Source: Parabacteroides sp. FAFU027 (GTDB taxonomy: Bacteria > Bacteroidota > Bacteroidia > Bacteroidales > UBA7332). Taken from it: 64,000 nt of DNA. The notes below the pieces were generated by a model. That model was not told the DNA's origin and searched no databases. It saw only the letters and a list, made by a program, of their open reading frames with translations. This document shows, piece after piece, positions 4,703 to 48,440 of this stretch. The position numbers and the translations under genes are program-made. Position 1 is the first letter of the stretch; each line of letters begins with the position of its first letter. The stretch spans positions 186,001-250,000 of the forward strand of contig NZ_JAKZKV010000003.1 of NCBI RefSeq assembly GCF_022808675.1, read 5' to 3'.

Positions 4703-5110
4703 ATGCAAGAACTAAAAGAATTAAGCGACCTCGCTCTCGCTATTTATGAAGAAGGAGATAAATACCTCGGCACCCTCTCCCGTTCATTGGAGAAGAAGAG
4801 CCGCTTTGGCAACGACCTGCTTTACAGTATGGCCGTGATGTGTTGCGAAAAACTGTTTGTCGCTTTGCTCTATCACTACGACGAATTTGCAGAGCACCAC
4901 ATGCCTATCGCCCTCTATAACGATGCTGCAAAAGTGGAAACCGAGCTGACTCCGGAGATGAAAGATACCTGCCGACTGATTAATAAATTTGAATCCATCT
5001 GCTCCATTGATGGCTTTGGTTACAAAACACCGACCGATGAAGATTTGAAGAAAATGATTACCGGTCTTCAGGATATTCATGCGTTGGTGACTAAACGGAT
5101 AAAAGGGTAA
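4703..5110 (+). CDS. Conserved small helical protein, possibly HEPN-like
   Basis: A 135-residue soluble protein with no signal peptide. It appears almost wholly alpha-helical, with a Cys pair (MCCEK) in the second helix. Length and helix pattern resemble HEPN-domain proteins, but the catalytic R-x4-6-H motif of HEPN nucleases is absent, so no nuclease activity is claimed. It stands alone, with a possible sigma54 promoter upstream and a terminator directly downstream. Function unknown. Confidence 0.65.
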   Translation: MQELKELSDLALAIYEEGDKYLGTLSRSLEKKSRFGNDLLYSMAVMCCEKLFVALLYHYDEFAEHHMPIALYNDAAKVETELTPEMKDTCRLINKFESICSIDGFGYKTPTDEDLKKMITGLQDIHALVTKRIKG

Positions 5111-5144
5111 TACTTATCATCAGTTTAAATATAAGATCCTTTAC

Positions 5145-5183
5145 AAAATCCCCCTACCGCACCACTAGTGACAAGGGGATTTT
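5145..5183 (+). terminator. Rho-independent terminator
   Basis: Arms aaaatcccc (5145-5153) and ggggatttt (5175-5183) are perfectly complementary and close 35 nt after the upstream stop codon. Confidence 0.65.
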
Positions 5184-5188
5184 GAATC

Positions 5189-5608
5189 AAAAGCGTCTCA
5201 GAAGCACTCGTGACCGATAAATTAGCGCTCTGGAGTGCTAAATGGCGCTTCCGACCGCTAAGTTGGCGGTAATTACCGCCTCGCTGGCACTCCGGACCGG
5301 TAACTTAACGCTCAAGAGTGCTAACCTGGCACTCTTGAGCGCCATTCTGTCGGTCGAGAGCGCTAGATTGTCGCTCTCGACCGCTAATCTGGCGCTCCGG
5401 ACCATCTCCGGGACGCTCTCGACCGATAAATTGTCGGTCCGGAGCGACTTCAAGTCGGTAATTTCCGTCTCAGAGTCGAAACCGACCGACAAAAAGTCGA
5501 AATGGACCGACTCGGAGACACTCCGGAGCGACTCTGAGACGGTCGGAAGCGACTTCAAGTCGGAATGGAGCGACTCGAAGTCGGTCGAGAGCGAGTTGAA
5601 CTCGCTTT
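5189..5608. repeat. 21-bp-period degenerate array 1 (20 units)
   Basis: Exactly 20 consecutive 21-bp units with no phase slip, for example agagtgctaacctggcactc followed by t. A loose consensus is nGACCGCTAAnnTGGCGCTCn. Many units are hairpins whose arms change together: GAGTGC/GCACTC, GACCGA/TCGGTC, AGAGCG/CGCTCT, CGACTT/AAGTCG, AGCGAGTT/AACTCGCT. The first half uses GCTAA-type cores and the second half GACTC-type cores. Because 21 is divisible by 3, long open frames appear on both strands (5242-5634 plus, 5238-5771 minus). Those are treated as by-products and not genes. Confidence 0.9.
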
Positions 5609-5681
5609 TTCCTGATAAAATCAACAACCTCTGAAATAGGGTTAAGTCAATTTCAATCGGTGTATGATAGTTGAATTTTCG

Positions 5682-5689
5682 TACATTTG
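5682..5689 (+). promoter_or_regulatory. -7 element TACATTTG
   Basis: Match to TAnnTTTG located 41 nt before the ATG at 5731. No clear TTG is seen at the -33 position. Confidence 0.45.
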
Positions 5690-5730
5690 AACGCTTGATA
5701 TTCACCTCAAAGTTTAACCCGACTTCAGCC

Positions 5731-6414
5731 ATGAGAAAACTGACTTTGCTATTCCTTTTCCTGACCAGCACACTCTACATCATAGCTCAAACCGAACGTG
5801 ACGCCCAGCTTTGGCAAAAGGGCGAACTTGAGTTTGACATCAGCCGCCGTTACAGTTTCAGCCTGCAGGATGAAGCCCGACTGACCGACAACATGCAACA
5901 CCTCTCCTACTACTATTTCGACTTTGGCAATGTGATAAAATTCGGCAAATCCTTGCGTCTGGGACTGGATTACGTCTTGGTGGAAAAGGAGAAAAAGGAT
6001 GGTTTTTACAGTACCCGTAACCAGTACAACGTTTACCTGAGCATGCGTCATAAATACCACCGCTACCTCTTTTATAACCGCATACTTACCGAAGGGCAAT
6101 GGGTCGATTACAAAACTTCCGAGAATGGACACGAGTTGCAGGATAAATTCCTACGTGACAAAGTCACCCTACGCTACAAGCTAAAGAAATACCTCTATCC
6201 CTACGTAGAAGATGAGCTCTACTACCGCCTACAACGCGACGGTAACAAAAATCCGGATGGCTTTGACCGCAACCGCTTCTACGTCGGCCTGCTCTACAAC
6301 CTGACGGACAACTTCAAGCTCGATTTCTTCTCCATGTATGAGAATAACTTCAACTGCGTTCCGCATGCGCAAAACTTTGTGTACGGGGTGGGATTTTCGA
6401 GGACACTTTTCTAA
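5731..6414 (+). CDS. DUF2490 family outer-membrane beta-barrel protein
   Basis: The frame is open from 5671, but the Met at 5731 begins a clear signal peptide (MRKLTLLFLFLTSTLYIIAQ), so the mature protein is exported. The 227-residue product shows alternating aromatic/charged beta-strands, QLWQKGELEFDISRR near the mature N-terminus and a C-terminal strand ending in a terminal Phe (GVGFSRTLF), as in outer-membrane barrels. DUF2490 members are of unknown function. A very long palindrome follows its stop codon and may terminate the transcript. Confidence 0.8.
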   Translation: MRKLTLLFLFLTSTLYIIAQTERDAQLWQKGELEFDISRRYSFSLQDEARLTDNMQHLSYYYFDFGNVIKFGKSLRLGLDYVLVEKEKKDGFYSTRNQYNVYLSMRHKYHRYLFYNRILTEGQWVDYKTSENGHELQDKFLRDKVTLRYKLKKYLYPYVEDELYYRLQRDGNKNPDGFDRNRFYVGLLYNLTDNFKLDFFSMYENNFNCVPHAQNFVYGVGFSRTLF

Positions 6415-6430
6415 TGATTGGATAATTTGT

Positions 6431-6488
6431 TTGGTGGAATGGGTATATTTTTATTGTCTAGACAATAAAAATATACCCATTCCACCAA
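6431..6488. repeat. Perfect 58-bp palindrome
   Basis: Two 29-bp arms (ttggtggaatgggtatattt at the start, complement at the end) meet at a central TCTAGA with no mismatch and no loop. It begins 17 nt after the DUF2490 stop and ends 2 nt before the ATG at 6491. In RNA it would form a hairpin of roughly 27 bp that occupies the ribosome-binding region of the next gene. Confidence 0.95.
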
Positions 6489-40350: not shown

Positions 40351-40902
40351 ATGCAGACCTACATTGCCATATTACGCGGCATCAACGTCAGCGGAAACCG
40401 CATGATAAAGATGGATACACTCCGCCAAATGTTTTCCGACATGGGATTTACCGGGGTTAAGAGCTATATCCAGAGCGGAAACATAATCTTCCAAAGTAAA
40501 AATGGAAACGATACGAAGTTTGAGCAAAAAATAACGGAGGAAATCCTTTTCCGATTCGGATTTGACGTTCCGGTGATTGTCCTGAGCCGTGACGAACTGA
40601 GGATTATTATTGAGCAGAATCCCTATTTGTCTGATAAATCAAAGGAAAGCAACCACCTGCATGTCACTTTTCTGACCGAAAAGCCGTTACAATCTTTGGT
40701 TGATAAGTTAAATGCGGACAAAAGTCTTACAGATGATTTCAAAACCAGAGGACGAGTTGTCTATCTCTACTGTCCGAATGGATACAGCAAGACAAAAATC
40801 AGCAACAGCCTGATTGAAAACCGTCTCAAGGTCATCGCCACCACCCGCAACTGGAAAACCTGCAACGAACTCTTCTCTTTAGCGACCGATGAGCTGAAAT
40901 AA
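40351..40902 (+). CDS. DUF1697 domain-containing protein
   Basis: 183 residues. The start MQTYIAILRGINVSGNRMIKM, the VKSYIQSGNIIFQSK strand and C-terminal TTRNWKTCNELFSLA are diagnostic of DUF1697, a cytoplasmic family of unknown function. It ends a run of small plus-strand genes and is followed by a stem-loop (atgccggt 40912-40919 with accggcat 40933-40940) and then a 21-bp array. Confidence 0.9.
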   Translation: MQTYIAILRGINVSGNRMIKMDTLRQMFSDMGFTGVKSYIQSGNIIFQSKNGNDTKFEQKITEEILFRFGFDVPVIVLSRDELRIIIEQNPYLSDKSKESNHLHVTFLTEKPLQSLVDKLNADKSLTDDFKTRGRVVYLYCPNGYSKTKISNSLIENRLKVIATTRNWKTCNELFSLATDELK

Positions 40903-40937
40903 TAAATGAAAATGCCGGTATATGAAATCACAACCGG

Positions 40938-41294
40938 CATAAATTACTTCAGAGCGGGAATAATTCACTTCATAGCGTGCATATTCCAATCCATATTAAC
41001 AATATATAATTATATATTCCAAATATATCAATTCACATTCATCACAAATCACCTCTTAGATGTCAAATAATATTTCATAGTCTGAATATATTAAAACACA
41101 TTGACCTCAAATTAAATCTAAGAGAGAATAAATCACTTCTACGCGGCAATATTTTAGTTTGAAGAGTGGATAAATCAGCCACAAGACCCAATAAATAGGA
41201 ATCTAGCGCCGATAAATCATTCCCTAATCACTATTTTTCGCTTTCAATTCAGGATAAATATCCGATTACTCCGAATATATTGTTTCACAGTCGG
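40938..41294. repeat. 21-bp-period degenerate array 2 (17 units)
   Basis: Seventeen 21-bp units without phase slip fill the gap between the converging DUF1697 and GlmU-like genes; the last unit ends 4 bp before the GlmU-like stop codon. Loose consensus AATAAATCACTTCnnAGnGGn. Examples of the unit start are aataattcacttc, aataaatcacttc, gataaatcattcc and aatatattgtttc. Very AT-rich and more diverged than array 1. No coding potential. Confidence 0.8.
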
Positions 41295-48119: not shown

Positions 48120-48440
48120 TGCAAATGGGTACTTCAGGCTTGAATTAATCTACCTTTTACCCAAATTAATTCATCATTCAAGTGGGTGAGGGTACTTCAA
48201 TCCCGAATTAATTTACCTCTGACATGAATTAATTCATCTTTGATGTGAATTAATTTACCTCTGGGGTAAATTGATTTACCTCTGAAGTAAATTAATTCAA
48301 GTTGGAGGTAGTGGGGGGTACTTCAAGGATGAATTAATTTACCCGTAAAATGAATTAATTCACCTTCAACCCGAATTAATTCGTCTTTGATGTAGGAGGG
48401 GGTACTTCGGAAGTACCCCCTCCTACATCCGAAGTACCCC
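48120..48440. repeat. 21-bp-period degenerate array 3 (15 units, two unit types)
   Basis: Fifteen in-phase 21-bp units. Type A begins tgaattaattYAyct and has a GAATTAATTC-like palindrome. Type B carries gggtacttc (48120, 48183, 48309, 48393 and an inverted-looking unit at 48414). A and B are mixed, but never out of phase. The last units make a 35-bp palindrome (arms 48392-48408 and 48410-48426). It ends next to the stop codon of the gene at 48452. Confidence 0.88.

Follow-up and report, generated by a model that had tools for sequence, protein, structure and literature searches.

Array 1 and its surroundings

Within the window, a 64,000-nucleotide stretch of the genome of Parabacteroides sp. 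FAFU027 to which coordinates refer unless another locus is named, a tandem array (array 1) lies between two genes on the forward strand. The features of the locus are as follows.

4703..5110, plus strand: upstream gene, 135 aa (ORF list), its 3' end facing array 1
5144..5184, plus strand: terminator-like hairpin in the gap between the upstream gene and array 1, with a 10-bp AAAATCCCC-type stem (RNA fold -16.4 kcal/mol, z -4.3)
5193..5612, no strand: array 1, 20 x 21 bp (Tandem Repeats Finder period 21, unit table and dyad statistics)
5193..5444, no strand: array 1 units 1-12, mainly the CGCTAAnnTnGCG subfamily, block border approximate (unit table)
5445..5612, no strand: array 1 units 13-20, mainly the CGACTTnnAGTCG subfamily (unit table, own-genome matches and clustering)
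5587..5613, plus strand: last unit of array 1, a terminator-like near-perfect hairpin AAGCGAGTT/AACTCGCTTT followed by T5 (RNA fold -12.0 kcal/mol, z -3.2)
5731..6414, plus strand: downstream gene, DUF2490 (PF10677, Pfam E 1.1e-21)

The upstream protein has no match in Pfam and one relative, with 50% identity, in a Bacteroidota MAG where the flank carries no array. The DUF2490 protein has no relative at E<=1e-20 among 59 related genomes, so that the array 1 locus has no ortholog for comparison. A simple terminator scan calls neither of the two hairpins, and the Rfam and tRNA scans gave no match. A perfect 58-bp palindrome (no spacer, 29 pairs, centre TCTAGA, read by eye) occupies 6431-6488, after the DUF2490 gene and ahead of the following start codon (6491).

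The best register of the array is 5193-5612, the earlier note having placed the same 20 units of 21 bp at 5189-5608. The units combine a main CGnnTnnnAnnCG-like dyad with a half-period CGSTCnnnGASCG-like dyad, and they fall roughly into two subfamilies, CGCTAA..TTGGCG-like in units 1-12 and CGACTT.AAGTCG-like in units 13-20, the latter CGACTTnnAGTCG subfamily being common to array L041 (G000:C1:522 kb). All five arm pairs that the earlier note had quoted are present, among them GAGTGC-TAACCTG-GCACTC, GACCGA-TAAATTG-TCGGTC, CGACTT-C-AAGTCG and AGCGAGTT-G-AACTCGCT. Array 1 is an intergenic, non-coding minisatellite of partly palindromic 21-bp units, and belongs to a small dispersed family, of which the 0.84 Mb covered contains five arrays. 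Its units abut and differ from one another, whereas a CRISPR would have identical repeats and unique spacers.

Complementarity of arms within and between units

It had been proposed in the earlier note that the arms of single units change but stay complementary, and that this reflects selection on dyad symmetry or on a folded nucleic acid and not on the sequence itself. The excess of complementary arms is real, and the result that the earlier note had named as refuting, no excess over shuffled units, was not obtained. On the main axis of array 1, 113 of 190 pairs are complementary against 89.6 expected from column composition, the figures for a second axis at a distance of 10.5 bp being 108 of 209 and 93.7. 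When right arms were permuted among units the main dyad fell from the observed 0.750 to 0.516 (P<2e-4), and joint permutation of the 21 columns gave a null mean of 0.46 for the best dyad, which is 0.75 in the array (P=0.001). The second axis scored 0.640 against 0.579 permuted (P=0.08). Any periodic sequence with one dyad automatically has another half a period off, and since the 10.5-bp spacing follows from the period and that one dyad it is no independent evidence of helical phasing.

Because duplication of blocks mimics covariation between the arms of tandem units, neighbouring units are the necessary control. Permutation only inside blocks of four neighbouring units gave 0.663 for the main dyad of array 1 (P=0.004), and right arms were 0.60-0.65 complementary to the left arms of neighbouring units, compared with 0.75 within their own. 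Much of the covariation in array 1 is thus owed to its two unit subfamilies, or block structure, which only partly explains the residual own-unit excess (P=0.004). When the 69 units of the five-array family were pooled, own-unit complementarity was 0.722 and 0.713 for the two dyads and neighbour-unit complementarity 0.695-0.722 and 0.684-0.715, both higher than for pairs drawn at random across the family (0.615 and 0.559). Arms in the pooled family pair with their neighbours about as well as with their own partners, and therefore vary together between blocks of units. Only array 1 and L044 show an own-unit excess over local permutation at P<0.01. Across 29 arrays mean complementarity was 0.605, compared with 0.560 permuted and 0.576 locally permuted; six arrays exceeded full permutation at P<0.05 and three exceeded local permutation.

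Distribution of 21-bp arrays in the genome

A lag scan covering 0.86 Mb (about 0.84 Mb unique), sampled as stretches of the 4.9-Mb genome, revealed 39 periodic stretches, with lags of 21, 42 or 63 in 28 and of 41-44 in six. The 31 intergenic arrays taken from the scan correspond to about one per 27 kb in the 0.84 Mb, from which about 180 non-coding arrays per genome are estimated by extrapolation. Grouping by blastn divided 32 arrays into 24 or more sequence families, that of array 1 having five members, and the unit length of 21 bp, or two helical turns, is mostly common across these families. A significant consensus dyad was found in 11 of 28 arrays tested (about 40%) and was lacking in 17. 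The cores include GGAC..GTCC, AGCG..CGCT, CAGTCATGACTG and CACTC..GAGTG. At least 13 of the 31 arrays are free of overlap with ORFs of 80 aa or longer.

Flanking genes were tandem at 18 arrays, convergent at seven and divergent at six against a background of 184:43:45, and this unbiased orientation suits a feature of the DNA itself. Where the flanking genes are in tandem, the 3' gene end is the nearer to the array in 14 of 17 cases; the difference in distance itself was not significant (P=0.07-0.10), with distances that rest on longest-ORF approximations of genes. At L029 (8500-8520) the first unit of a 21-bp array contains the stop codon of the gene before it. Three further arrays lie in the window, two of which have orthologs in G002, a genome of the same genus.

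40900..41110, no strand: fourth 21-bp array, AT-rich (lag scan and unit table), the G002 ortholog being longer by exactly 63 bp
48145..48434, no strand: array 2, intergenic, 21 bp, AATTAATT core (dyad 0.72, P=0.001), the G002 ortholog having 97-98% identity
59313..59520, no strand: array 3, 21 bp, CCTTAAGG/CATnnATG, between two nitrogenase-type genes (dyad not significant, P=0.54)

Array 2 terminates in a long inverted repeat, GGAGGGGGTACTTCGGAAGTACCCCCTCC (48404-48433). Repeats of other kinds were also encountered. Near-perfect palindromes recur every 41 bp or so, about four helical turns, at L035 15785-16062 (TGCAAAATGCA) and at L052 8120-8410 (CTACAAAATGTAG, with both orientations of its centre). 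A 31-bp tandem repeat with a lag identity of 0.9 (L132 1813-2023) adjoins an IS200/IS605-type transposase gene, and a 303-bp repeat present three times in tandem (L128 962-1867) adjoins a Y1_Tnp (RAYT-like) gene.

Comparison with related genomes

Two genomes of the same genus, including G002, were available for comparison. In G002 the alignable array position and both flanks were kept at 22 of 25 loci compared, and array lengths were mostly equal or differed by whole units (0, -1, -1, +2, +3, +3, +3 and +9, with a few larger or irregular differences), although the assembly is fragmented, with 8% contamination, and some of these differences may be assembly effects. The sister arrays of array 1, which itself has no ortholog, thus behave as minisatellites or VNTRs do, whose tandem units of about 10-60 bp vary in number between close genomes, with 21-bp units and changes of -1 to +9 whole units. 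At the locus of array 3, G002 has a different, longer 21-bp array instead (L079 680-1500), despite 99% identity in the protein of the flanking nitrogenase-type gene.

Base identity between the source genome and G002 was 0.924 in genes and 0.908 in arrays, with 0.896 for the remaining intergenic DNA; the array value, hardly above the last, gives no argument for strong constraint. Seven orthologous dyadic arrays, all of them sister loci and not array 1, provided 480 arm pairs, in which there were no compensatory double changes, 26 changes from match to mismatch and 13 from mismatch to match, the power of this comparison being low at 2-11% divergence. Matched arm pairs changed as often as a shifted control (26/344 and 36/599, P=0.41). 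Arm positions changed less than other positions (5.6% vs 8.1%, P=0.028).

The phenomenon extends beyond the source genome, the periods being close to two or four turns of the helix. G003, a genome of the same family, has 21-22-bp arrays of a AAAGATACnGTATCTTT-type palindrome, some of which adjoin runs of N; G001 has arrays of 21 and 42 bp, G020 one of 23 bp, and G031 arrays of 21-46 bp, for example TTTCGCCCCGGGGCGAAA at 42 bp. The runs of N in G003 (L091, L093 and L094), of which some lie within GATACGGTATC arrays or adjoin them, may be masking or else assembly gaps to which such arrays gave rise. G001 also contains a 48-bp tandem repeat with 98% lag identity (L166 17561-17830, CCCATAAATGGGACGGCAATGAATAG...).

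Competing explanations

It is possible that the arrays are neutral minisatellites, lacking any function, in which slippage and unequal exchange have spread 21-bp units, the symmetry being derived from an ancestral palindromic unit or kept up by mutation through template switching between arms (quasipalindrome correction). Arrays that change length by whole units, a substitution rate resembling that of other intergenic DNA and the 17 of 28 arrays with no significant dyad all agree with this, and template switching is described in PMC8604942 and PMC8794818 as able to create and maintain hairpins and to homogenise the arms of inverted repeats. It has left little trace here, however, as an inverted copy lay nearby for only 5 of 226 clusters of array substitutions, compared with 14 for a direct copy; moreover, cores are conserved above spacers, and a single period over at least 24 sequence families demands a cause. 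A coding origin, in which 21 bp would be seven codons of a heptad repeat, is very improbable and was rejected. Two ORFs do cross array 1 (5238-5771 on the minus strand, 177 aa, and 5242-5634 on the plus strand, 130 aa), but a 21-bp unit free of stops yields such ORFs trivially, many arrays have no overlapping ORF and stops abound in several sister arrays.

Selection on a folded RNA, whose hairpin beads would serve after transcription as terminators, as stabilisers of a 3'-UTR or as sites of processing, would account for the frequent contact of arrays with 3' gene ends, for the hairpin and T5 that end array 1 and for single-strand folding far above mononucleotide shuffles (z -10). It is nevertheless improbable, given that arm mismatches oriented by the flanking genes show no excess of G.T over A.C (80 and 87), that swapping second unit halves shifts folding energy by only about one standard deviation (z -1.1), that compensatory changes and Rfam matches are lacking, and that divergent gene pairs carry arrays at the background rate. 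A mobile palindromic element, whether a REP/BIME moved by a RAYT transposase or a BrickBuilt-like MITE with an internal minisatellite, is likewise an improbable source, even though array families are dispersed across several loci and the source genome has eight Y1_Tnp matches, some in proteins of RAYT-like length. An element bounded by terminal inverted repeats is largely ruled out, as the longest match between flanks is 6 bp for array 1 and averages 6.9 bp over 26 arrays, equal to the null of 6.9. The units of array 1 have no conserved GTAG or GGAG tag, and a link to RAYTs was rejected, transposases being present but with no association with arrays (only two of the eight Y1_Tnp loci have one nearby).

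The proposal of the earlier note has therefore to be divided. Dyad symmetry is genuine, both in array 1 and in the 11 of 28 arrays, but its attribution to selection on symmetry or folding rather than on sequence does not survive the comparisons of neighbouring units, of orthologous sister loci and of RNA properties: selection on a folded RNA has left no sign, and unit-by-unit selection on symmetry little.

Origin and possible role of the arrays

The account regarded as probable, taken as a whole, is that of a dispersed, block-descended minisatellite, whose likeliest role would be at the level of the DNA. An array would grow or shrink by whole units or blocks of units, as is seen between genomes for the sister arrays, and neighbouring blocks would descend from a few palindromic parent units of differing sequence. 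Arms would then vary together as a consequence of block descent from palindromic parents, and not of upkeep of self-complementarity in each unit. Block descent as the origin of the arm covariation is supported, and the residual own-unit excess of array 1 counts against its being the full account.

The functional step is doubtful, if possible: phased symmetric sites, two helical turns apart, might be displayed on one helix face in intergenic DNA, often in contact with a 3' gene end, and could serve to load a topoisomerase or a DNA-binding protein that acts as a dimer or oligomer, as in the BIME elements of enterobacteria, of which BIME-2 binds DNA gyrase (PMC2817692). The common period and the conserved symmetric cores would fit such an arrangement. 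Column conservation is more uneven than in simulated neutral duplication of units (combined P 3.5e-8, with 7 of 24 arrays significant singly) and weakly symmetric around a dyad (combined P 0.002), but these combined values are optimistic, arrays that share a family not being independent, and the simple simulation may understate the variance from nested duplications. The unevenness is not significant for array 1 alone (P=0.14). Some units do resemble sites, with fixed AGCG..CGCT or GGAC..GTCC cores and free spacers. It counts against a site role that 24 different cores are beyond reading by any single sequence-specific protein and that 17 of 28 arrays have no significant consensus dyad. It has further been considered, as an unlikely proposal, that these arrays may form a large intergenic class in such Bacteroidales genomes in which sequence varies by locus and architecture is fixed, with a symmetric core every two turns; their reader would then be a DNA-binding system that senses structure or symmetry, such as a nucleoid protein or topoisomerase, in place of a regulator specific for sequence.

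Relation to known repeats and significance

Bacterial minisatellites and VNTRs resemble the arrays in their tandem units and in whole-unit differences of length between close genomes. The unit length of minisatellites normally varies from locus to locus, whereas here unrelated arrays have it in common and about 40% of them show a consensus dyad; the occurrence in one genome of at least 24 families mostly with a two-turn unit, several with conserved symmetric cores, is notable against usual minisatellites. In plasmid iterons and parC-type arrays, sites recur on one face of the helix about every two turns (iterons) or every turn. The arrays described here are chromosomal, occur at many loci and were seen with no linked replication or partition gene, so that this is a resemblance only.

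The nearest published relative is BrickBuilt of Porphyromonas gingivalis, a 23-nt minisatellite/MITE (Klein et al. 2015, PMC4596501), which is likewise found in Bacteroidales, is intergenic, and consists of tandem units, abutting with no spacer and about two helical turns long, at multiple loci per genome. In BrickBuilt, however, a single sequence is repeated, leader and tail segments are present and the terminal inverted repeats resemble those of IS5-family elements (PMC4596501), whereas the present arrays have no such terminal repeats, fall into 24 unit groups among 32 arrays and have palindromic units. REP and BIME elements are extragenic and palindromic, occur at many loci and form tandem clusters (PMC2817692), a description that fits the dyadic minority of the arrays, but REPs belong to one sequence class per genome and carry a GTAG-type tag (PMC2817692), while here cores differ between arrays, units abut at a fixed 21 bp and a RAYT link is absent. 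PARCELs, too, are tandem repeats with dyad symmetry, but they encode units of 25 residues (PMC2996958) and the present arrays are non-coding with 21-bp units. Nothing direct on 21-bp palindromic intergenic arrays in Bacteroidales was found in the open-access literature.

Should a DNA-binding or topological function prove true, the arrays would be an easily spotted and testable class of chromosomal organiser in Bacteroidales; should their regularity be mutational, they would be a good system for studying the origin of palindromic tandem repeats.
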